Of a stretch of 53,714 nucleotides of DNA, positions 18,701 through 45,445 are shown piece by piece (positions within the stretch are counted from its first letter, which is position 1; each line of letters starts with the position of its first letter). This DNA is from a virus. Under the pieces are notes generated by a model. That model worked only from the letters and a program-made list of their open reading frames with translations, was not told where the DNA came from and made no database searches. The position numbers and the translations under genes were made by a program. The stretch lies in the IMG/VR virus record IMGVR_UViG_3300033182_000063, positions 1 to 53,714 of that record; one strand, given 5' to 3'.

Positions 18701-20930
18701 GACCAAATTGTTCGGCAAGAGCGAAATGCAAGGTCCGTATGCACCGTTGAAGCGCTTCGGCGACTACGTCGTCGTACTTAAGTCAGACCAGCTGAAGGCT
18801 GCGGAAGACGCGCTCAAGAAAGACAATTCTAAAGCTAACCGCGACGCAGTGGAGAAACTGAAAGCTCAGCAGATTCATTACGTGGTTAAGTTCTTTGACA
18901 CAATGGGTTCTGCGAACCAGTTCCGTGACGCCAACCTAGCTAACTATCCTGCTTCTCCAGAGGCACGTACTCGTGACCAGAATGAGGACATGCGGGGCTT
19001 GCAGGGTGCAGAGGTTCTGTCTAAAGCCATCGGTCAGTTGACCGCAGTGGATGGACTAGACCCGAAAGCCAAGGACGCGTTCAAAAAGCTGTTGGAAGAA
19101 ATGTACTTCCAGACCATGCAGGAACGTGACGCACGTCAGTCTGGTCGCAAGCGTATGAGCTACGCAGGTTTTGAGGAGAACATGATCCGTTCGTTCCTCT
19201 CTCACGCGCACTCAGAAGCCAACATGATCGCTCACATGACCCACGGGGCTGAGATCAACTCAGCTCTGGCGGAAGCCAAGAAAGAGGCACGCGAGTCCGG
19301 TAGTGAAGAACTGAACCTGATCCACCAGAAGATGGTTACTCACTACGTTAAGAACATGACTCCACGCACTGGCTTGTGGAAGAGTATCGAAGACCGTGCG
19401 ACTGCGGTTACTACCGTGTGGATGCTGACTTCTAGTGTGGGCTACCACATCCAGAACGCTACTCAGACCATGATCGCCCTTGGCAAACTGGTTGAGATCG
19501 CATCTGCTCCGGCTACTTACAAGGCTCTCGGCAGAGGTTACGCACAGGCTCGCAATGTTGTGAGCTACGACTTCAAGAACCTCCAGACTGTCGTCGACGT
19601 GGCGAAGGCTGACCCTAAGTACCGCAAACTGTTGGAAGAGTTGAATCTTCGCCAGTTGCTAGACGTGGGTATCGAGCAAGACCTTAATGAGTTCGACTCT
19701 AAGGACTGGGGTAACAAAACGGTCAACAAGATCGGCGACGGCATGAGCAAAACCGCTCACCGCCTGTATCAGATCGCTCGTATGGTGGAAGGTTACAACC
19801 GTGTATCGAGTGCCGTAGCTGCTTATGATCTGGCGCAACGCAACGCCGGTAAGGTGAACCGTCTGTATGGCATGACTCCACAGGAGTACGCAGTAATGGT
19901 AGTTGAGGATACTCAGGGTAACTTCTCTGGTATCGACGCTCCACTGGCGTTCAAGCGTACTTCTAAGATCATCACTCAGTTCCGTAAGTATCAGGTAATG
20001 ATGGCTTGGTTCTACGTGGATGCAGCCAAGAAAGTTCTGAAGGGTGCTACTCCAGAGGAGCGTATCGCAGCAGCTCGTGTACTCGGGTTCTCTACCACCT
20101 ATGCAGCACTGGTCAGTGGCGCAGTCGGTATGCCGGCGATGGGTCTTTTCGCGCCTATCTTCTTCGCGCTTATCGGTGCAGGTGACGATGACGAGGAACC
20201 AAAAGACTTGGAGCGTTGGATCAGAGACAACGTCGAGGACGAAACTCTGGCTACCATTATCTCTCGTGGTCTACCTGCGGCAATCGGTCTGGATATGTCG
20301 ACCAAGCTGTCACAAGCCAAGATTTTCGATCCTCTACCGTACACTGACTACGAGTTGTCAGAAGAAGGTGCAGGTGACATCGTCGTCGACTTGATAACCG
20401 GTCCGTTCGGCTCCGTCGTCAAGAGTGGTCTGCGTGGTAAGAAGTACGCGGAAGAGGGCGACTACTACCGTGCCATCGAGAACATATCTCCAAAAGGGCT
20501 TCGCAGTATGATGGAGAGCTACCGCTACTCAACCGAAGGTTACAAACTATCCAACGGTGACATCGTGGCTGATCCATCTATGTTCGATTTCAAAGACCTG
20601 CTGATTAACGGTCTGGGGCTACAACCTACCGACCTGAATGTTCTCAAGTGGAAGTACGGGCAGCAGTACGAGTTGACGCAGTGGTTCACCGAAGAGCAGT
20701 CCAAAATCACCAAGGCGTACGTACGAGCTGAGAAAGCCGAGGACTACGACGAGATGGATAAATTGGAAGAGAAGTGGGAAGCGCTCCAAGAATCTAAAGA
20801 CCGAGTACGTCCATTCTTCAACGATTCCTACGGGGCTCTCAAGTACAGTCGCCTACGCAATCTGACTCGCGCTCCATACCGAGCAGAGAAACGTGCATCA
20901 AAAACCAGAGAGAAACTTGGTACTGACTAG
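12735..20930 (+). CDS. Giant polyvalent internal virion protein (zincin-like + ART-like domains)
   Basis: 2731 residues, the largest gene here. The N terminus has a repeated NPWE/DPW motif. Long Ala/Glu/Lys helical regions (about 350-1130) follow. His1220-Glu1221-x3-His1225 in MHEIGSHMGLDNLL is the HExxxHxG zinc motif of zincin-like peptidases in phage polyvalent proteins. At about 1355, FHGTATWFRKFNHDFMGTG then EGAQAFGWGTYLAE begins an ADP-ribosyltransferase-like domain (ART-PolyVal type), which closes near 1795-1807 (NKVIFNDKDVIRV). A helical region then leads to a hydrophobic patch (about 2449-2484) and a charged tail. Such proteins are thought to be injected with DNA and to act on host targets. 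Domain calls are from motifs; activity is untested. Bases about 16950-18200 look more AT-rich than the rest. Confidence 0.85.
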   Translation: MKNPWEVEDQVKTSNPWEAQTSERDPWDYGGADDDWRSELASRRPQSTEPQYESEDTSFVRDVADVGVGFVGAVPKAAGSLVSLGSLVPGVHYVADPLSSGLNSVGEWVDNTFLSDRQLEINKELQTRLQAAAEELGPDASIGDYIDNMVAQGGEAGAFIADHPGQVTNLIAQSLPYVFGGGVAAKGLKAGAKVVGAEKVANMGAKTSGAVGEGLITAGAVEGEIVRTNEQKGEDGYSLDRLAAVPAGVTTGLISRGGAQFSPVDIDTVAAKVAAGETADLMQEAAKQGFVKRTVKGAALEGVEETLQSGQEKVFTNIGTDEHPLKDVGGDAVIGGITGAGQGAGVNALAGLKQNSETNEDLVVRPDTETLLEEAQLTIPRNEDGSMPNIELPEVTPEGASTGLFVIMNGEQVDLAALQANRDALLVAHSTATPEQQAQIEEIVNQVAAIEQQMGAAQQVRDQELAAAAQQEEAKKDLRLKHADTFPDEAEFVNELKKEAQATRDAELDDPTTEIGAAFQQWRKDNNNYDTKNNSAAAKKQFLKDAGIQEGEVDFKGDYLAALDAHAEMKEVQANRNPQSQARIDREKAELVAELNEAVKSGDPAAIAAVEQKAINAGLMPAEWAEAKRTLTKGLNANKKTPKTNTNATPATPAAPATNLENTETPAPKTPKVSKVKADAIKRATEALGDNWQEEHPELSQLLDNGGLYKKDKNGVRRFDKFLNQAVEEKKAKDAEAQAEKDKINSMSDADIEMRNAAEEYATEKLGDNWVETYPDLNKVLDEGNYGLFNREVDAAADNAANATDSEIVSQKANTLANKENIKLAKTEQKIYDFLLERAKQGNLSDYVNADGSFNATAIAKDAGLKSKGVATTGRTRIKKKIAEALGMTEEQLTEGLSQTKRGNTQEFEDNRGDAPSVGTTVSENEIFGDDQTQSTMSEISSVGGSQSNIGDLTKEEKEYVDEQAISKPDPVQQQRQKDAQERLEKQIDAVLASPLAQEALNMWNNMKSDGAVSADQLSKQDAYDWIMTVAEVDAGYIDMKQLDKDQRDMERRYDANEVLTDETNQDAGQIESQKVLEGPSQDAQGTDGTRGTIDTEAAGDSAEVQLTAAEQKERASKVKVSTKKKRKFSVKNLFGGKGKKSVTRTAFMRELADITGKKAPWRVTVFDTTAEAIAARITDEDIGTIRPQGWVVPDSNGLDRAYFILENIKEGNERAVIMHEIGSHMGLDNLLTEEQVDIAVGKIMEWSELDDGSDASLYAKAARVRAAEAAPHMENPETDYPSELIAYFIEEAVNDGVDVTKSDGTALGDFIRKMWAAFKSAYRKFRGDNVDTLTPQDFVNLAYGAARLENSTTFHGTATWFRKFNHDFMGTGEGAQAFGWGTYLAERFGIGNEYRQADVSRKNNKTGSLFHFPKIFEALRGYSHSKNIGAKADHRTHDVKSQLIKDSIAAENKGVLKDVYIQRNDEDGNPKLIKVKIAPGAKVFNRGGYVLVQALVAGEDNSFQSKSSFLVQELVDKDGNSLLSEDEAFESYLAGMLELTDGTFGTTGQLYRVDYAFADEEMLDWDERVEDQPLVLKAINNMPDEIVDALMEDLATDEEFTGVTGELLYFSLSNLQFHDYMLEEYVPQKDYDQAQKAGSRVGPGTKGQAVTAKAIASAFLYQYGIKGIKFLDNTSRKKARRVVDDNQDTLVNDVPQLLDIVNDSTPYLKEKGARVLYYKKADGTVESLLVSTKSAVSYRTTSDGEARPVRIASSVDGVSIPLKELYTDQNATIPLEFDEAQIRADIDEAKKYKADGFTRNKVIFNDKDVIRVANNPGSKMGPGNIRFSVGKKSKQVAKTLMGSFGEMTVDNFAALAKTAVKELKFLHSFIRDVRDRMPSADKWYNFILESEKTRNEILQKVENIAVQAREMGDQQMKEVNKFIADSTLYQKWGYQPSWITDPNFKADPIMERRWKKLNADQRKVVEQVFQHGEDMRQLKADLAKKMGLTKLFGKSEMQGPYAPLKRFGDYVVVLKSDQLKAAEDALKKDNSKANRDAVEKLKAQQIHYVVKFFDTMGSANQFRDANLANYPASPEARTRDQNEDMRGLQGAEVLSKAIGQLTAVDGLDPKAKDAFKKLLEEMYFQTMQERDARQSGRKRMSYAGFEENMIRSFLSHAHSEANMIAHMTHGAEINSALAEAKKEARESGSEELNLIHQKMVTHYVKNMTPRTGLWKSIEDRATAVTTVWMLTSSVGYHIQNATQTMIALGKLVEIASAPATYKALGRGYAQARNVVSYDFKNLQTVVDVAKADPKYRKLLEELNLRQLLDVGIEQDLNEFDSKDWGNKTVNKIGDGMSKTAHRLYQIARMVEGYNRVSSAVAAYDLAQRNAGKVNRLYGMTPQEYAVMVVEDTQGNFSGIDAPLAFKRTSKIITQFRKYQVMMAWFYVDAAKKVLKGATPEERIAAARVLGFSTTYAALVSGAVGMPAMGLFAPIFFALIGAGDDDEEPKDLERWIRDNVEDETLATIISRGLPAAIGLDMSTKLSQAKIFDPLPYTDYELSEEGAGDIVVDLITGPFGSVVKSGLRGKKYAEEGDYYRAIENISPKGLRSMMESYRYSTEGYKLSNGDIVADPSMFDFKDLLINGLGLQPTDLNVLKWKYGQQYELTQWFTEEQSKITKAYVRAEKAEDYDEMDKLEEKWEALQESKDRVRPFFNDSYGALKYSRLRNLTRAPYRAEKRASKTREKLGTD
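13769..13784. promoter_or_regulatory. Internal copy of the 16-bp dyad inside the polyvalent gene
   Basis: TGTTAACGCGTTAGCA differs from a perfect palindrome of the consensus at one base. It lies about 1 kb into the 2731-codon gene, coding for VNALA. It may be a chance match or an internal regulatory site; unlike the intergenic copies it has no promoter context. Confidence 0.3.
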
Positions 20931-22414: not shown

Positions 22415-25369
22415 CTAATCTGCTTTTTCAACCTGTGTCTCGACGTGTGTTTCGTCCTTCTTAACTAAAGTTAGAGGGGCACGTCCGCCGAACAATTTGT
22501 TGAATTTGATCTCGTAACAACGGGCTTGACCAGATGGAACCGTACTACCAGAACCTAACACTACACGGTTGCTAGGCTGTCCGTCGGCTGTGTAGATTAA
22601 GTAACCTGCACGATCCATCTCTTCTTTCATGGCACTTGGAGCGATACCGTGGTCCTTACACCAGTCGGAAACTGCCTTAACCGTGACAAATATTTTCTTG
22701 TCGTCGGTGGCAACACGCCCGACGGCGGGTCCACGCAGAGCTTCCATCGGATGTTCCTTGGCTTTGGTGCGTGAGTCTGCGAAGTGTTTGGTGATGATGA
22801 GTCGTCCGGGCAGGGTAGCGATGAAGCTAGCCAACTGCTCACTGATGTCCGTGTTGGATTCCTTACGGCTCTCACGCATTTTGATGACGTGATCTAAAGC
22901 CCATGACTTCATGTTGGCGAGGTCGAAACTAACCAGACCTAGCTTTTCAGCGATCTTACCTGCCACGTATGCAGTACAGATGGTGTCACGGTAGAAGCGT
23001 TCTTTGTTGTCGTCCTCAGACTTCGGATTGAACTTGGCACGAGCCGCTTGCATCTGGCGCTTAACCCAGTCGTAGTTCTTAATCACGAAACGGATGAACG
23101 GACGGCACGCTTCGCCGTACACATTGTCCATGTGGTTCTCGATGAACTCCTGCGTGATGTCAGGGAACACCTTGGTACGGTAGTCAGCCGGTAGCTGTAC
23201 CTCGAAGAAGCGGAGCTGAGTTGCCTCAACTCTATAACCTGCCGGCAGCTTACTGATTGACTCGTGGATCGAGTCGTTCGATGTGATGAAACTGTTCTTG
23301 AACCACTGACCGCCGACGGTGCTGAACTTACCGTTAGTACCCAGACGCTCCTTATCCCTGCCGTTACCAAGAGAGTAGGCGGTACGGGTCAATTCCTCTG
23401 GCGACCTGCCGGAGAACTCGTCGAGTAGCATAGGCAGTGAACCCATGATGGCGATGCGTTTGATCGCAGCGTTAAGGGTAGAACCCTGCTCACCAGTCTG
23501 GCGTTCCATACGCTCTGGGTTTCCGTAGAAGCCACAAGCGATCTTGGCGGCAGTAGATTTACCAGTACCACCATGACCTGTGAAGGCTAGCGGTAGACCG
23601 TGCCAGTTAGATGAACCCATCAACTCAACGAGGATTGACCCCATCGAGTGGCACAGTGCGAACTGGAATGGCTCGGCACCTTCTCGGTTATAGAGCTTGT
23701 CGATGTTATCAACCCACTCGTCGAGAGTACCCTTGGTGCCGAAATCAACGGCTACGTCTGTTGGCATATCTGGATCACACAGGACAGTCTCTTCGTCCTT
23801 AGCTGTAATCATCGTCGTGCCGATAACGAAACCGGTCTTGTCCTCGTTCCAACCAAACTGTCGGTAGGTCTTAGTCTCGATGCGCCATGCTTGTAGCGTT
23901 TCGATTAAGCCCTCTGCAAATTCAGCCATGTCGTTCCTCGCATTTTTGGTACGCATCAAGAAAACTTCATGCGACGCCAGTGTCTTTGCCATCATGTCCG
24001 TTGAGGCTAGCTCTGAGGTAGGCATGAAGAACTCACGCCACTTACCGTTTTTCTCTTTGGCTCGCCAGTGGACTACCCATGTACCTTCCGAGTCTTGGAT
24101 ACGGTTAAGTGGGTAGATGAACGAACGTGCGAATGGACGCCACTGCACAACGCCGTCAGCATCAACAACTGCTCTGGAGAGAGCCGTGCCGTTCCAACGG
24201 TAGCCACTGTTAGGCCAGTAAGGGATCGTCTGCCCCTCAATAACTGTATGAGGCGTTGCCTGTGTGCTGTCGTCTTCGTCGTCAGTTTTCTTTACAGTCT
24301 CTTCGGCTACGGACTCAGCTTGCTCAGATGCCCCCAACTGAATTGGATACTTACATTTGCTAGCCATAGGACAGTCAGCCATACAGCCGACATGCTTATC
24401 CATCTCAATACAAGAAGTGGGACCGACGTTCCATTCGTCAATCTTGTCCTGCGTCTCAATCTGCGAGTACGCTTCATGACCCTTGCTCCACTCGTGGATG
24501 ATGGCTTCACCGTCTTTACAAAACTTGACCACGCCAATCGCACGGTGCCAGTGGGGTTCTGCAATGTTGCCTCCAGATTCTTTAAAGTCGCGGATAGCCT
24601 TACAATGTTGTGCAACAATATCTGCGTCTGATTCAGGGTAGTCGCCCAGTGCCGCTGCGAAAGGGTTGTCCGAACTCTTCTTCACTTTGGTTGGGGCAGG
24701 GGCGACATTGAACTCTTTGATGTACGACTGGAGTGCGTCGCGTACTTTATCAACTGAGTAAGCCTTTCCTAGTTTGACTAACTCAACTGGTCGCTCCATG
24801 TCGTTCTTACGGTTGTGCGTACCAACTGGACGTAGGATGCGTGCGCTATCCATGTCGACAGCTCGGTCAGCTTTCAACCCAAGGTGTGTGGTTACGTCGC
24901 GCTTCATAGCGGACAGCTCTTCCCAGACTTCTTTGGAAACGTCCTGATCTAGGGAGATGTAGCAGTGGTATCCACCGCCGGAAGATGTGATGGTAGGCGT
25001 CAGCTTGACTGCCTGTGCGAAACGAACAACGTCGGCGAGTGCTTCTTTTCTCGTCGCGTACTTCTTGTCGTCGTCGTCGTCGACGTCGAAGTCGTCGTAT
25101 AAACTACGGCATGCAACTACGTTCTCTTGTGTCCGTATACGTTGTTTGCCTTTGGATTCGTCGGTGTACCAGTCACCGAAAGAGTTGACTGCGAAATAAA
25201 CTGTTTCGCCTTTGCTATCGAATATGTTGGCTAACTTAGCCGCTTCTCTAGCTGTATCGTATGATTTGTATTTGAACCAAACACCACCGTGTTCTGCGGG
25301 GGTTGCCAGTGCGAGTATCTTCTTTCCCTCGCTCGGCATTATTAGTTCTAAAAATTCTTGTGTCCCCAT
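22415..25369 (-). CDS. Primase-polymerase / helicase fusion (AEP prim-pol + DUF927-like ATPase)
   Basis: 984 residues. The N-terminal part has archaeo-eukaryotic primase motifs: acidic DFDVD in residues 93-97, GGGYHCYI (131-138) as the sxH motif, and DSARILRPVGTHNRK (174-188). A Cys cluster follows near 320-340 (C-x8-C-x3-C-x5-C). The C-terminal half is a ring-type ATPase with Walker A GHGGTGKST (598-606) and Walker B MLLDEF (647-652), resembling the DUF927/D5-like helicase class. One protein would thus open the helix and prime replication, replacing separate DnaG and DnaB functions. A dyad operator lies 12-27 bases upstream. It is the last gene of the early block. Confidence 0.85.
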   Translation of the reverse strand: MGTQEFLELIMPSEGKKILALATPAEHGGVWFKYKSYDTAREAAKLANIFDSKGETVYFAVNSFGDWYTDESKGKQRIRTQENVVACRSLYDDFDVDDDDDKKYATRKEALADVVRFAQAVKLTPTITSSGGGYHCYISLDQDVSKEVWEELSAMKRDVTTHLGLKADRAVDMDSARILRPVGTHNRKNDMERPVELVKLGKAYSVDKVRDALQSYIKEFNVAPAPTKVKKSSDNPFAAALGDYPESDADIVAQHCKAIRDFKESGGNIAEPHWHRAIGVVKFCKDGEAIIHEWSKGHEAYSQIETQDKIDEWNVGPTSCIEMDKHVGCMADCPMASKCKYPIQLGASEQAESVAEETVKKTDDEDDSTQATPHTVIEGQTIPYWPNSGYRWNGTALSRAVVDADGVVQWRPFARSFIYPLNRIQDSEGTWVVHWRAKEKNGKWREFFMPTSELASTDMMAKTLASHEVFLMRTKNARNDMAEFAEGLIETLQAWRIETKTYRQFGWNEDKTGFVIGTTMITAKDEETVLCDPDMPTDVAVDFGTKGTLDEWVDNIDKLYNREGAEPFQFALCHSMGSILVELMGSSNWHGLPLAFTGHGGTGKSTAAKIACGFYGNPERMERQTGEQGSTLNAAIKRIAIMGSLPMLLDEFSGRSPEELTRTAYSLGNGRDKERLGTNGKFSTVGGQWFKNSFITSNDSIHESISKLPAGYRVEATQLRFFEVQLPADYRTKVFPDITQEFIENHMDNVYGEACRPFIRFVIKNYDWVKRQMQAARAKFNPKSEDDNKERFYRDTICTAYVAGKIAEKLGLVSFDLANMKSWALDHVIKMRESRKESNTDISEQLASFIATLPGRLIITKHFADSRTKAKEHPMEALRGPAVGRVATDDKKIFVTVKAVSDWCKDHGIAPSAMKEEMDRAGYLIYTADGQPSNRVVLGSGSTVPSGQARCYEIKFNKLFGGRAPLTLVKKDETHVETQVEKAD

Positions 25370-37243: not shown

Positions 37244-38421
37244 TACGCCTCCGAGTCGAACTTGATGACTGTGCCCCAGTTGAAGTTCTCGTTGTGGGTA
37301 GTGAGCCAGACAACATCAGAGCTAGGCTGCTCGATATAGTCTTGGTCGCCGTAGCCGTCAGTCAGGTAGATGACGCACTCGATCTCCTCACCGCACTGGT
37401 CAACCCAATCGAACACTGGTTTGAATGACGTACCGCCACCGCCATGTGGACGAAGCGTTACAGGGAAGTCGTCAGGTGTGTACTCAACGACGTTGTTGAT
37501 GGCGGCGTCACAGTAGACGACGTGAACTTTCTCAGGGATACATGAGTGGAGTATCCGGTTGATGTGACCGTTGAACTCGTTAAGCTCACGCTGACCGATA
37601 GAGCCAGACGTATCGACGGCGATAACTACCTGACCCATCTTTGGTATGTAGTCGTAGCCGGGAAGGTACAAGCTGTTAGCCATGAAGCGGCGGTTAGGTC
37701 GTGTCCATGAGTGACCATCTTTCTCTTTGGCTTGCATGTACCGCTCAAGTATCTCGTGCCACGGGGTAGGCACGTTGACCATCTCGTCGATCATGCGCTC
37801 GATAGAGGCAGGTAACTTACCGCAAGCCTTAGCTGCTTTGGCTGACTGGATAGCGTCGATCTTGGCTTGTGCCTCCAGTGCATGCACCTGCGACTCGTCG
37901 AGTGGTTGCCCTCCGTCGTCGACTGGGTCGCCGATGTCGTTGCCGATACCGCCGGGACCTTGACCTTCGCCGTCGTCGTTCTCGTCGTACAGCTCCTCAG
38001 CCGCATGGTCACGGGCACCGTCGAGTGTTACACCGCCGTCGATGAACTCACCTACCTTGGCGTCGATCAGCGTGTCGTTAATGACTTTGTCACATGCCAC
38101 GTTCCAAGCGTTGTGGTCACGGTGTTGTTTCCGCAGGGCATGAGCCAACATGTAGTGCATCGCCTCGTGAGCTAGCAAGAACATAAGCTGCTTGACGTTG
38201 AGCGGTTCGACGAACGCAGGGTTCATGTAGATTTGCCCAGTCGCAGACATTGCCGCAGTTGGGATAGCGTCGGTGTACTTGATCGGACGCTTGGCGACCG
38301 TAGTACCAAAGAAAGGATGGTCGAGGATAAGTAACGCTTTCGCCTTACCTACCTTGCGCTCGACCTCGGCTTGGTTGACCTGAATGCCATCGTTCAAGTC
38401 CTGAATAGCTAACGTAGCCAT
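37243..38421 (-). CDS. VWA-domain protein with DUF2201-type metallopeptidase-like domain
   Basis: 392 residues. N-terminal half: FLLAHEAMHYMLAHALR gives an HExxH zinc motif (His85, Glu86, His89), followed by NVACDKVINDTLI, the DUF2201_N pattern. An acidic Gly-rich linker (140-175) follows. The C-terminal half is a von Willebrand A domain with a MIDAS: DTSGS (270-274), Thr331 in GGGGTSF and Asp355 in LTDG. Proteins of this type pair with MoxR ATPases, here encoded two genes upstream, as chaperone or remodelling systems that act on partner proteins with metal. Their target in phages is unknown. Confidence 0.88.
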   Translation of the reverse strand: MATLAIQDLNDGIQVNQAEVERKVGKAKALLILDHPFFGTTVAKRPIKYTDAIPTAAMSATGQIYMNPAFVEPLNVKQLMFLLAHEAMHYMLAHALRKQHRDHNAWNVACDKVINDTLIDAKVGEFIDGGVTLDGARDHAAEELYDENDDGEGQGPGGIGNDIGDPVDDGGQPLDESQVHALEAQAKIDAIQSAKAAKACGKLPASIERMIDEMVNVPTPWHEILERYMQAKEKDGHSWTRPNRRFMANSLYLPGYDYIPKMGQVVIAVDTSGSIGQRELNEFNGHINRILHSCIPEKVHVVYCDAAINNVVEYTPDDFPVTLRPHGGGGTSFKPVFDWVDQCGEEIECVIYLTDGYGDQDYIEQPSSDVVWLTTHNENFNWGTVIKFDSEA

Positions 38422-39472: not shown

Positions 39473-40486
39473 TTAGTTACCTCCCATAAAGATGTCTTTG
39501 TTAGCAATAGCCCAGTCGATGAACTGCTTGGTCTGCTGCAACGGTGGGTTGAGACGCAGGGCGTCAGTGACGTACACCATCTGGAACTCCTTAGGCAGTC
39601 GAGCCATGTACGCCATGTCACGCTCAAATGAGTCAGGCGCAGAGGTCATCGACAGCGCAGTTGATACAGCGTGACGTACAGCAGGTTCGCTAGGCACCTC
39701 AGCCTTGTCAGGGTGTAGGCGGATTGAGTCGACGCTAGGCATCTTGTTCATAAGGTCACGTGCAGCTACCCATTCAGCAGCGGCACCCTCACCAACTTTG
39801 CCCTCACAAGCGTACATATATAAGTCAGTAGGTAAGGTGTTAGGCACCTCTTTGAACAACTGAGTCCATGCACGTTGGGTCGGGTTGATCGAGCGGTTAG
39901 CATCGAAGTCGTTCAGCAGTGCAGGGCGTAGACGCAAGAACGCTATGCCAAGCGGGTCGACGTCGTTCTCCATAGCCCAACCACACCAGTCGTCGAGTGA
40001 TGTCTCCATCTCGAACTCATACATGCGGTTGTTCAGGTGAGTCAGCAGCTGCTTGGCACCCGCCTTATCCTCCACACGGTTACCGGTGACGATGAAGCGC
40101 ACCTCAGGGTCAAGCTCGAACGTCGGTGTTTTGCGCTCAAGAATGAAACCCGCCGCCCATGTCTGGTGGTGAGTAGATGACTGCGGCAGCTCTTCGAGGA
40201 CGATCAGTCCTGCACCAGTACCTTTGCGGAATTGGTAGAACATCTGAGTCGGGTTAAACACTGTCTGACCCTCATGCACCGATGGCACACCAGTGAAGTC
40301 GACAACGTCGTGGTTGTTAACGTGAACGACAAGCTGTCGCTCGGCAGGGATACCCAACGCGTCACCGATCTGGAGTGCTGCGTCTGACTTACCCATGCCC
40401 GGCTTACCCTTGAGAAAAGGTACAGCGGTTGGTGACTTGGCGAGAATCGCAGTGGTCATCTCGATAACTTGGTTGATACTAGGCAT
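39473..40486 (-). CDS. MoxR-family AAA+ ATPase
   Basis: 337 residues. Walker A GKPGMGKSDAA (27-37), a QLVVHVNNHDVVDFTGVPSV segment typical of MoxR (D-l-x-G-x-P), Walker B LIVLEEL (94-100) with Glu in place of the usual Asp-Glu order, sensor 1 FIVTGNR (131-137), and an arginine-rich region about 190-200. MoxR ATPases use ATP to open and remodel partners, normally with a VWA protein, which is present in this operon. It is the first gene of the unit behind two dyads (40525 and 40555). In phages such a pair is found in early regions; its target is not known. Confidence 0.88.
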   Translation of the reverse strand: MPSINQVIEMTTAILAKSPTAVPFLKGKPGMGKSDAALQIGDALGIPAERQLVVHVNNHDVVDFTGVPSVHEGQTVFNPTQMFYQFRKGTGAGLIVLEELPQSSTHHQTWAAGFILERKTPTFELDPEVRFIVTGNRVEDKAGAKQLLTHLNNRMYEFEMETSLDDWCGWAMENDVDPLGIAFLRLRPALLNDFDANRSINPTQRAWTQLFKEVPNTLPTDLYMYACEGKVGEGAAAEWVAARDLMNKMPSVDSIRLHPDKAEVPSEPAVRHAVSTALSMTSAPDSFERDMAYMARLPKEFQMVYVTDALRLNPPLQQTKQFIDWAIANKDIFMGGN

Positions 40487-41914: not shown

Positions 41915-42113
41915 GCGGTTGCTCCTGCATAGGGTTCATGATCTGCATGAAAGAGATGCACTCGCCCTGATGAGTCGTGCCGTCGGCGTAGTGGAAGGAT
42001 TCGCCGCAGCCAGACATCCAGTTGATGATAAGCCACGCGATGAATACTCCAGAGATGAGCGACGCGACAGTTACCGTCAGCGCACGCGCAAGGTATTTAA
42101 GATAGTTAGACAT
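41901..42113 (-). CDS. Small single-span membrane protein, first gene of the long early run
   Basis: 70 residues from ATG 42113 (ribosome site GGAGAT). N-terminal hydrophobic segment about 8-32 (ARALTVTVASLISGVFIAWL) after a short basic head, then a soluble tail with two cysteines (SGCGESFHYADGTTHQGECI). Probably inner-membrane with the Cys pair outside. Such proteins at the front of early operons often act in superinfection exclusion or lysis timing; here that is only a possibility. It directly follows the iteron cluster. Confidence 0.55.
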   Translation of the reverse strand: MSNYLKYLARALTVTVASLISGVFIAWLIINWMSGCGESFHYADGTTHQGECISFMQIMNPMQEQPHGNQ

Positions 42114-42148
42114 TATTATCTCCATAAGGTGTTATTGGGTTAAAAGGG

Positions 42149-42457
42149 TATTTAGACAGGGTGTGCTAAATAGACGGGGTATTTAGACAGTTGGATTTTG
42201 TCTATTTATTGAAAAATCAAAGGGTTAGGCGGTATATAGACAAATAGACAGTTGTAAAAAGAAGTTCCAAGGGTGGAATGGTGGAGCGCGCGTTTTGCAT
42301 GCCGCACACACATTTCTTTCAAACTTTTATTTTATTTTTTTATTATGTCTATTTGTCTAAATGTCTATATACAGCTCTGGAACCCTTGGTATTACTGGGT
42401 TTTGGTATTTAGACAACTATTTAGACAAAACACGCGTTGGCATATTTTGTCTAAATA
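42149..42457. repeat. Twelve 10-bp iterons, consensus TATTTAGACA, on both strands
   Basis: Copies with + orientation start at 42149, 42167, 42180, 42233, 42241, 42406 and 42418; copies in - orientation at 42199, 42346, 42354, 42362 and 42448. All keep TAGAC or its complement; the first positions vary (TATTTAGACA, TAAATAGACA, TATATAGACA, CAAATAGACA). Those at 42346-42371 are stacked with 8-base phase. This is denser than chance and unlike a CRISPR array, which would have constant spacing. Iterons bind replication initiators or repressors. Confidence 0.8.
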
Positions 42458-42475
42458 GGGGCACTGGCGTGCCCC
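42458..42475 (-). terminator. Possible terminator of the 169-residue gene
   Basis: GGGGCA-CTGGCG-TGCCCC, a 6-bp stem; on the - strand it is followed by TATTT from an iteron. It lies 8 bases after the stop of the gene at 42484. Moderate strength because the T tract is short. Confidence 0.5.
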
Positions 42476-42483
42476 GTTGAGGA

Positions 42484-42993
42484 TTAAGCTGCTAAGTCGT
42501 TAGCAGGTTGTACGACATCCATGTAGCGACGCATTAGGTCGTCACGTTGGCTTGGTGCCGCAGTGTGAAGGCGACCTTCCGCTTTAGCCTTCTCAAGTGA
42601 CTTGATTAAAGACTCCAGACGCTTGAACTCGTCCAACTCCTTAACAGCTTGCTCAGTTGTCATGGCAGATTCATACCATGGAGCGGTGTCAGTGAGGTAA
42701 GCCACAACAGCTTCACCATTGGTAAAGTCGGCAGATTTACGCGCTGACTTGTTGATAGACACTTTGCCGTCCTCAGAGATGCGGACAAAGCAGTAATCAG
42801 TTGCCCACTTGACGATGGCTTTTTTGTCCATGCCGGTGGTTGCATCAAGCAGACGCGAGATTGCAGTGAAGTCACCGTGATCGAACACGTGCCCCGCAAT
42901 GTTGCACAACACGACATGAATGTCCTTGTTGATAGTCGCACGACGACGTGAGATTGACGCGATTTTGGTGGTGATTTGGGATTTAGATAGCAT
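42484..42993 (-). CDS. Conserved early protein next to the origin
   Basis: 169 residues from ATG 42993 with AAAGGAG; the frame upstream (to 43029) has no separate ribosome site. N-terminal helix KSQITTKIASISRRRATINK, then NIAGHVFDHGDFTAISRLLD, a segment KAIVKWATDYCFVRISEDGK, VSINKSARKS and a C-terminal coiled coil (LDEFKRLESLIKSLEKAKAE). The domain order recalls small phage DNA-binding or recombination-associated proteins of unknown role. It is separated from the main early run by the iteron region, so it may be the first transcript and could bind the iterons; this is inference. Confidence 0.6.
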   Translation of the reverse strand: MLSKSQITTKIASISRRRATINKDIHVVLCNIAGHVFDHGDFTAISRLLDATTGMDKKAIVKWATDYCFVRISEDGKVSINKSARKSADFTNGEAVVAYLTDTAPWYESAMTTEQAVKELDEFKRLESLIKSLEKAKAEGRLHTAAPSQRDDLMRRYMDVVQPANDLAA

Positions 42994-43448
42994 GATGTTC
43001 TCCTTTGTAAATGACATCGTTAAGCGCACAAGAGGTTATACGCTTAAAGATGTGCCCCGTTGCCGAGGCACAAAAGTACCCAAAGCCGGTGTCTACTAAA
43101 TTTGTCCCCGCGTACTGGTTAACGCTTCGACCGTTCGACACACAAACACGCATAGACTTGTCAGGACATCATCGTGTTTGCACCGCCCATCTATTCCCTC
43201 ACCATCGTGACCTATTCAATGGGTTGCCGTCGTTCCATACACTTCGAGAGTGCCGCGGCTTCAGTCTGCTATACAAGTGAGACCGTCACTTACCGTCGCA
43301 ATCCTGATCCTCACCTGACTCGGCGCAAGAGTGCGCGAGGGGCTTGGGGGCTACTTGGGATTTGCGCGACCGCATAGGCGACCGGCTACCTGTTGTCACT
43401 TCGGGGGTAGACCCTTATCTTTAGAGAGCGGTGACTGGCTCTTACTAG

Positions 43449-43464
43449 TGGTGACGCGTAAACA
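43449..43464. promoter_or_regulatory. 16-bp dyad in the divergent control region
   Basis: TGGTGACGCGTAAACA, one position off the consensus. It is 207 bases from the terminase start and about 450 bases from the divergent early gene, so it does not clearly belong to either. Confidence 0.55.
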
Positions 43465-43547
43465 GGTGGGTGGGTACTGACCGACGGGGCACCCCCATAC
43501 GACCCAGCCTTAGGTAGTACATGCATCACAACCCCTATTTTTACCTA

Positions 43548-43565
43548 TATTAGAATTCTCTAATA
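43548..43565. promoter_or_regulatory. TATTAGA-ATTC-TCTAATA palindrome
   Basis: 7-bp arms around 4 bases, unlike the TGTTnAC dyad. AT-rich and about 105 bases before the terminase gene. A candidate binding site for another regulator. Confidence 0.45.
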
Positions 43566-43651
43566 CACATCCACGACCCCCACCCCCTTCGTATATAAAA
43601 AACGCCCCAAAAAATCCCGGCCTAAAATTTGACCCCTATATTGACTTTATG

Positions 43652-43667
43652 AGTTCACGCGTTAACA
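43652..43667. promoter_or_regulatory. 16-bp dyad directly before the terminase unit
   Basis: AGTTCACGCGTTAACA ends 3 bases before ATG 43671. No Shine-Dalgarno sequence is visible between, so a bound protein would cover the start region and the message may be leaderless or start very near the ATG. Confidence 0.65.
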
Positions 43668-43670
43668 CTT

Positions 43671-44030
43671 ATGTCCATGAGTACTCAAGTAGATAAAGTT
43701 CGCCAAGAAGCTGAGCTGGAAGGGGCGCCAATCCTTTCTCGTGGTCAGCTACAGATGATCGAAGATGACCCATCCAAGATGGAGACGTTGGCTCGTCTAA
43801 TGGGTGCTGTGAATCTGGATAACCTGTTCCGTCACATGCAGAACCCCAATGTGAATCCGGCAACACGTATCGAGTTTCAAAAAATGTTGAACAAAATGGG
43901 CAAGCTGGAACCCGATCCAAAAGCATCTCTGGATGGAACAGGTCCACAAGTGGTTATCAACATAACTCGTGCAAAAGACGCAGATGGCGGTATGACGATC
44001 GAAGGCAACTCAACGCCGGTAAATGATTAA
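43671..44030 (+). CDS. terS: Probable small terminase subunit
   Basis: 119 residues. Two in-frame ATGs (43671, 43677) without a Shine-Dalgarno motif. The protein has an acidic helical N-terminal half (KVRQEAELEGAPILSRGQLQ, MIEDDPSKMETLARLMG), a middle helix EFQKMLNKMGKLEPDPKA and a beta-like end VVINITRAKDADGGM. No clear HTH is seen. The identity rests on position: it precedes and overlaps (TAATG) the large terminase gene. The small subunit would recognise the pac or cos site. Confidence 0.6.
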   Translation: MSMSTQVDKVRQEAELEGAPILSRGQLQMIEDDPSKMETLARLMGAVNLDNLFRHMQNPNVNPATRIEFQKMLNKMGKLEPDPKASLDGTGPQVVINITRAKDADGGMTIEGNSTPVND

Positions 44031-45445
44031 TGTCTCATCAGATTGATTTCGAGGTTATTGAAAGCCTCGACGAGTTTTACTACTCAGAAAAGTTCATCGC
44101 ACTGGCGGTTGGACCGGTAGGTTCGACGAAGACGACAGCCGGTATCATGAAAATCCTGTATCACGCGGCTAACATGGCTCCGTGTAAAGATGGAAAACGC
44201 AGGTCTCGCGCCATTTGGGTACGTAACACCCGAGAGCAGTTGCGAGACACATCCATACCGGACTTCATGAAGTGGATACCTGACGGGGTTATGGGCTCGT
44301 TCCTGAAGACCGAGTACAAATTCGTCATATCCGTTGGAGACATCGAGTGCGAAGTCCTGTTCCGTGGTCTGGATGACGCCAACGACGTAAGGCGACTGTT
44401 GTCGCTACAGGCGAGTTTCTTCATATTTGACGAGTTTCGTGAGATTCACCCTGACATATTTAACGCGGCGCAGGGTCGTCTGGGTCGTTATCCCGACAAA
44501 ATGATGAACGGGGTGGGTTGTGTCACTGATGACGGGAAGTCGAACGCGCACCTGTGGGGTATGACAAACCCGCCGGACCAAGATACGTTCTGGGAAGAGC
44601 TGTTAAGCGATCCTCCAGATAACGTGCATGTGACGATACAGCCCAGTGGCTTGTCACCGGAGGCGGACTGGACGAGGTTCCTGCCGGATGACTACTACGA
44701 CAACCTAGCTCAGGGTAAAACTGAGGACTGGATAAGTGTGTACATACACGCCGAGTTTGGTAAAAGTCTGTCAGGCCAGCCGGTGTTTAAGTCGTTCGAT
44801 AGGACGGCGCACACCTCGAAGGAAGAGATAACGCCGATGTTCAGCGATGACCCGCTGTTGATCGGGATAGACGCCGGTCTGACGCCGGCAGCTGTGATAG
44901 GACAGGTAGCGTATGATGGACGTCTTGTTATTTACGATGCTCTCATTTCTGATGGGATGGGTGCTCTACGATTTGTTCGGGAGAGACTGAAACCTCTACT
45001 GGCTAACAAGTTCCCGGGTAGGCGCTCGCAGGTGATAATCGACCCGGCAGCGTTCCAGCGGGTGCAGACCGATGAGCGGACAGTTGCAGACATATATAAA
45101 GCTGAGGGGTTCTCGATAAAACCCGCTAGGTCTAACGCGATCGCGGCGCGTCTCGCTGCGGTTGAGAAATTTATGACGCGAGTTGTAGATGGGAAATACG
45201 GACTGGTTGTGGATGGGGTTAGTGCGAACAGCCTAGTCCAAGCACTGGCTGGTAAGTACCGATACAAAATAAATACAAAAGGGGTTAAGGACGAGAAACC
45301 TGAGAAATCTCACCCTTGGTCCGACATAGCTGACGCGTTCCAGTACCTGTGTCTCCATGCAGATGGAGGAGAGGTATTTGGCAGTCACATGATGGCAGGC
45401 GAGCGCAGGGAAGTGAAAAAAGTTGCAGCTGGTGGCTGGACTTAA
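44030..45445 (+). CDS. terL: Terminase large subunit (packaging ATPase-nuclease)
   Basis: 471 residues. ATPase motifs: Walker A-like GPVGSTKTT (28-36), Walker B FFIFDEF (130-136), coupling motif near WGMTNPP (176-182). RNase H-like nuclease acidic residues: Asp281 (IGIDAGL), Asp338 (IIDPA), Asp434 (SDIADAF). Standard length for TerL. It packages DNA into proheads through the portal encoded next. Its start overlaps the small-subunit stop; its 3' end is followed by a dyad-controlled promoter. Confidence 0.95.
   Translation: MSHQIDFEVIESLDEFYYSEKFIALAVGPVGSTKTTAGIMKILYHAANMAPCKDGKRRSRAIWVRNTREQLRDTSIPDFMKWIPDGVMGSFLKTEYKFVISVGDIECEVLFRGLDDANDVRRLLSLQASFFIFDEFREIHPDIFNAAQGRLGRYPDKMMNGVGCVTDDGKSNAHLWGMTNPPDQDTFWEELLSDPPDNVHVTIQPSGLSPEADWTRFLPDDYYDNLAQGKTEDWISVYIHAEFGKSLSGQPVFKSFDRTAHTSKEEITPMFSDDPLLIGIDAGLTPAAVIGQVAYDGRLVIYDALISDGMGALRFVRERLKPLLANKFPGRRSQVIIDPAAFQRVQTDERTVADIYKAEGFSIKPARSNAIAARLAAVEKFMTRVVDGKYGLVVDGVSANSLVQALAGKYRYKINTKGVKDEKPEKSHPWSDIADAFQYLCLHADGGEVFGSHMMAGERREVKKVAAGGWT

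Follow-up and report, generated by a model that had tools for sequence, protein, structure and literature searches.

The window, the whole stretch of 53,714 bases that was analysed, carries podovirus-type genes for a terminase, an SU10-like portal and adaptor, and a major head protein. Upstream of the terminase large subunit gene (terL) lies a non-coding stretch of about 0.35 kb filled with short repeats, which on its sequence is very probably where copying of the phage DNA starts. The features referred to below are these:

42107..42453, both strands: whole array of 12 TAGACA cores, the origin candidate
42149..42208: left outer iterons at 42149-42158 (+), 42167-42176 (+; degenerate, TAAATAGACG), 42180-42189 (+) and 42199-42208 (-)
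42215..42227, minus strand: IHF-consensus site AATCAAAGGGTTA (consensus WATCAANNNNTTR)
42233..42250, plus strand: left doublet TATATAGACAAATAGACA with an 8-bp step
42251..42345: 95-bp spacer, its right end (42316-42345) a 90% AT tract
42346..42371, minus strand: right triplet TGTCTATTTGTCTAAATGTCTATATA, three copies in 8-bp steps, opposed to the doublet
42406..42457: right outer iterons at 42406-42415 (+), 42418-42427 (+) and 42448-42457 (-)
22415..25369, minus strand: P0002, a primase-helicase of 984 aa and candidate initiator
42484..42993, minus strand: the 169-aa neighbour, phrog_1448
44030..45445, plus strand: terL, ~1.6 kb from the array

Genes for a metallopeptidase/VWA-like (DUF2201) protein and an AAA (MoxR-like) ATPase lie close together at 37246-38421 and 39476-40486, and this pair is conserved beside many arrays. 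The early region also encodes a pyrimidine dimer DNA glycosylase-like protein (PF03013; 40582-41052). A stretch of ~600 bp without an obvious gene (43030-43670) lies between the leftward early and the rightward late genes.

TAGACA occurs 34 times on the two strands of the 53.7 kb, with 12 copies at 42107-42453, seven forward and five reverse. These 12 cores fall within 352 bp where 0.15 are expected (Poisson p 1.6e-19), and no 360-bp window in 100 Markov genomes held more than four. This confirms the cluster of 12 iterons on both strands with 8-base steps (42237/42245 on the plus strand, 42346/42354/42362 on the minus strand) described in the original prediction. The 14-bp inverted repeat claimed there is also present and perfect (TAGACAAATAGACA / TGTCTATTTGTCTA, with a 95-bp loop between the arms), as is the T-rich tract at 42316-42345, which by its composition is likely the DNA-unwinding element. 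An extra degenerate copy, TAGACG, is found at 42171, while the copy at 42107, which overlaps the next gene at what by eye is its probable ATG, is perhaps not an iteron. Since the 10-mer TATTTAGACA has only five exact copies, the repeat unit proper is taken to be (T/C)AWWWAGACA-like, with the core AGACA. A motif-free scan, which sought any 5-mer occurring twice at an 8-bp step and facing an inverted copy 40-140 bp further on, matched the array alone within the window and had no match in 334 kb of other DNA from relatives. Comparison of the array region with phages by blastn gave no match. Promoter-like matches in the region are at chance level (three vs. 2.2 expected), as is the result of a terminator scan. 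Directly right of the triplet, at 42377-42395, stands CTGGAACCCTTGGTATTAC; many relatives have similar stretches (CTTGGAACCC / ACTTGCAACCC) at the same position, which from their sequence may represent a second, degenerate IHF-like site or a site of another kind.

The same architecture is found in other viral contigs. With the primase-helicase gene (22415-25369) as query, 22 related contigs were gathered, four of which carry WAGACA arrays with 8-bp steps in the arrangement of the window, and phrog_1448 adjoins the array in two of these four. Absence of the repeat from close relatives, named in the original prediction as evidence against an origin, did not occur. A scan of viral contigs for the triplet found at least 119. 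Scans for both arms found 60 loci with a spacer of 72-100 bp, 81 with 101-130 bp, and five with 42-71 bp, the first two sets overlapping because the triplet offers two spacings. The two-arm layout is represented by 93 loci, which form 51 clusters at 85% identity, and spacer lengths among them are mostly 93-97 or 104-107 bp. Shared across ~90 viral contigs are a forward doublet, a spacer, a reverse triplet, and flanking single copies, with an iteron consensus of (C/T)AWTAAGACA. The last twelfth of the spacer, on the triplet side, is 89% AT vs. 52% for the loci as a whole. Helical phasing of the spacers was considered, with peaks at ~95 and ~106 bp giving a resultant of 0.6 at a period of ~10.5-11, and is not claimed because adjacent periods score nearly equally and the lengths are not independent. 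Single-strand triplet matches in three loci (L080, L094, L095) resemble chance matches or repeats of another kind and were set aside. Among 84,980 bacterial and archaeal species the array pattern matched 18 stretches, with no prophage found. Those that were read are mostly Bacteroidales AGACATAAA-type repeats, unlike the array layout. In Prevotella and other Bacteroidales (L258, L261, L262, L271, L275), AGACATAAAGACATAAA-type repeats are clustered in either orientation and, as far as seen, are unrelated to the phage array.

Aligned origins reveal a second conserved element ~24 bp before the left doublet, which fits the consensus WATCAANNNNTTR of IHF. In the window the match at 42215-42227 is exact, lies 23 bp ahead of the left doublet's first AGACA, and is one of only three exact sites genome-wide. 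An exact consensus lies within 200 bp in 21 of 51 representatives, whereas shuffles gave 2.3 on average and never more than 7. When the slot at -26 to -21 from the left doublet is considered with 0-1 mismatch, 32 of 42 non-redundant representatives are positive vs. 0.8% of random places. Both orientations of the site occur at this one fixed slot, which fits a bending protein, and host IHF is the predicted occupant.

P0002 consists of an N-terminal primase region, a DUF927 AAA+ helicase (residues 428-681), and a C-terminal winged helix predicted by modelling. Pfam places DUF927 in the middle of the protein (PF06048, E 4e-28), and a profile search of the PDB returned SCCmec Cch (5dgk, E 1e-15) and SaPI Rep (8tch, 7e-10), with unrelated ATPases scoring behind both. 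The Walker A residues G598, G601, G603, and K604 and the LLDE motif (648-651) are invariant. The full-length model was too poor to use (pLDDT 54), so that only the C-terminal part is modelled well. The model of the last 220 residues, 765-984, with a pLDDT of 82, has winged-helix topology, and its best PDB match is SaPIbov1 Rep 8tch (Foldseek 3e-5, prob 1; Z 10.5), followed by Cch and then by small winged-helix-type domains, one of them bound to oriT DNA. The original prediction saw no obvious initiator of the Rep family, which was mistaken, as the prim-pol is itself Rep-like. It offered the prim-pol and the 169-residue neighbour as partners of the repeats; the former is upheld by its likeness to SaPI Rep and Cch and its modelled winged helix, and the latter is not supported. 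From sequence and model, P0002 rather than the neighbour is most likely the best initiator candidate and would bind the AGACA iterons.

Relatives of P0002 with ~30-77% identity occur in all seven searched triplet-bearing contigs of 47.9-63 kb; none was found in some array-bearing contigs of 37-47 kb, and in some large P0002-bearing genomes (G049, G052, G056) an array could not be recognised upstream of terL. No array turned up at loci within 10 kb of the primase gene, as expected from the 17 kb that separate the P0002 gene and the array in the window.

More distant relatives retain the geometry and the IHF site with a changed iteron. At 70% identity, G048 has the iteron TGAGACA. Among genomes with initiators of ~28% identity, G053 uses TTATCCAA with three 8-bp copies (AATTATCCAATTATCCAATTATCCAA) plus an IHF site, and G050 and G051 combine AGACA with TATCCA units in a single 8-bp register. 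Mixed arrays of this kind are seen in L297 (2200-2600) and L298 (1080-1472), where they possibly represent a halfway state of iteron change. Two cultured phages are related by primase and terminase, Pseudomonas phage Rollin and Rhizobium phage RHph_TM3_14A, and their candidate arrays were found by inspection without using the motif of the window. In Rollin, whose origin candidate lies at 0.25-0.68 kb of record OR577172, forward ATGCAA copies at 261, 283, and 305 are followed by an IHF site at 324 and, at 528-551, by a reverse triplet (TTGCAT) with 9-bp steps. The ACATA doublets of RHph_TM3_14A lie at 19834 and 19949, and its IHF site at 19760. The distance from the array to the detrended GC-skew minimum is 4.2 kb in the window, 6.5 kb in Rollin, and 2.8 kb in RHph_TM3_14A. 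GC skew was a check proposed with the original prediction; the minimum is near the array and not at it, and is confounded by gene direction, giving weak support for an origin. Several palindromic AAAAGGTAGTAAGTTACTACCTTTT-like copies surround the Rollin origin candidate (L299, 1-500) and are perhaps sites of a regulator. The primase-helicase relative in RHph_TM3_14A (L301, 42239-45322) is annotated as a 'putative integrase', which is probably a misannotation.

Similar arrays adjoin primase or helicase genes in six unrelated phage lineages, at loci that yielded no relative of the terminase of the window. The array lies beside a helicase-DNA polymerase fusion in L183/L184 and L196, and beside Prim-Pol proteins with DUF5906, D5, or DUF3987 helicase domains in L193, L060, and L189. 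In Aeromonas phage 13AC503A its neighbours are an AlpA-type HTH protein and a Prim-Pol. The array is 3' of the primase gene in L060, L189, and L193, as in SaPIs; L060 also has a terminase gene near, with the primase gene nearer. L190 is an exception in which a terminase gene is nearest, and L055, L112, L186, and L197 gave no clear assignment. Comparison of the P0002 winged helix with the C-termini of the initiators of these lineages gave homology not above noise, which does not exclude it.

Taken together, the repeats with the geometry that relatives share, the conserved IHF-consensus site, the joint occurrence with P0002, and the likeness of the latter to SaPIbov1 Rep and Cch make it likely, with good confidence, that the array is the replication origin of the phage, built in SaPI/PICI style and read by P0002. 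The original proposal of a probable replication origin is strongly supported by this comparison. It is hypothesised that P0002 binds the AGACA iterons through its C-terminal winged helix, and that the left doublet and the opposed right triplet would each nucleate one helicase ring. Host IHF at 42215-42227 would bend the DNA, bringing outer and inner iterons together, and the resulting strain would melt the AT-rich tract beside the triplet. The two rings could then load in opposite directions, making initiation at the array bidirectional, with the primase domain of P0002 laying primers for extension by the phage PolA-family polymerase.

A packaging signal of the cosB or pac type, in which the small terminase binds the repeats and IHF bends the DNA as at lambda cos, has in its favour that cosB of lambda also joins repeats with an IHF site. 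Moreover, terL is ~1.6 kb away and by clustering adjoins 96 of 120 loci, being a landmark in most array-bearing contigs. However, terL is linked to the array within a single clade. Most arrays of other lineages lie beside primase or helicase genes, that of L190 being nearest to a terminase gene, and this position speaks most strongly against packaging. An AT-rich tract between opposed arms also fits an unwinding element, leaving the packaging reading improbable. Control of the leftward early operon by a phage regulator bound to an operator cluster is marginally less probable still. The array does occupy a 370-bp gap inside this operon, and 8-bp steps with dyad symmetry would also suit some repressors. 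Against this, promoter-like matches are no more frequent than chance, the geometry is constant while flanking genes change, and a simple operator needs neither a fixed IHF slot nor an AT tract.

It is about as improbable as packaging that the array is an origin whose iterons are bound by another phage protein, such as the 169-aa neighbour, which recruits the primase-helicase. Genes beside origins, particularly early ones, often encode initiators, and 44 array loci carry phrog_1448 by BLAST clustering. The neighbour is nevertheless an unlikely partner, being replaced in many array-bearing contigs (by HMM it is absent from G008) and common in other phage groups, with 216 phage records that include Acinetobacter and P. 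putida podoviruses. Used as bait in viral contigs, the neighbour protein recovered none. The winged helix of P0002 itself also sits where SaPI Rep reads iterons.

The proposed reading of the array by P0002 has close parallels in SaPIs and in PICIs, which include those of E. coli. The C-terminal domain of SaPI Rep reads iterons (PMC7581432), in PICI origins an AT-rich region is always flanked by two sets of iterons (PMC6092414), and opposed SaPI repeats recruit two head-to-head hexamers (PMC9894130). The window likewise has two opposed iteron sets around an AT-rich tract, and P0002 resembles SaPIbov1 Rep (8tch) in its DUF927-type helicase and modelled C-terminal winged helix, a likeness of fold only. 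However, the SaPI origin is immediately 3' of rep, whereas the array at 42.1-42.5 kb is 17 kb from the initiator gene at 22.4-25.4 kb. The carrier is a tailed phage of full size that encodes capsid, terminase, portal, adaptor, and PolA itself, not a satellite, and unlike SaPIs and PICIs it has a primase fused to the helicase, a conserved IHF-consensus site, and an AGACA iteron in 8-bp steps. The array is outside the SaPI/PICI class by position and carrier, though SaPI/PICI-like in its proposed working. SCCmec Cch (5dgk) shares the DUF927 AAA+ helicase domain by sequence but belongs to a staphylococcal cassette element, in a separate operon and with no fused primase.

Other known systems share some of these features. 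The alpha protein of phage P4, with ori1/crr, fuses primase, helicase, and origin binding and acts on short repeats in both orientations. It differs from P0002 in helicase type and iteron, P4 is a satellite, and it is not known to have a fixed IHF slot. Iteron plasmids and the lambda ori (RepA/TrfA/O) place iterons beside an AT-rich unwinding region with help from IHF or HU; their initiators are not known to be helicases, and their iterons are longer and direct.

A broader proposal is tentative and, on balance, not favoured. It holds that opposed AGACA iterons in 8-bp steps, placed around an unwinding tract, define a modular origin class spanning unrelated phages, whose initiators have non-homologous helicase cores (DUF927, D5/DUF5906, DUF3987, or helicase-polymerase fusions). 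Within the DUF927 clade the iteron would have been swapped (AGACA, TATCCA, ATGCAA) without change to the geometry or the IHF slot, the DNA-reading domain and the iterons co-evolving as an exchangeable unit.

The layout of two opposed sets has so far been reported for SaPIs and PICIs, islands that parasitise phages, and here it appears, as judged by comparison of contigs, across many environmental phages. Its presence with a relative of SaPIbov1 Rep and Cch in full-size phages suggests a source of island replicons or features shared with phages. The array layout provides a signature by which origins can be located in phages that are uncultured, and the natural series of iteron changes lends itself to the study of initiator-origin co-evolution. 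The cultured phages Rollin and RHph_TM3_14A make the origin reading directly testable.
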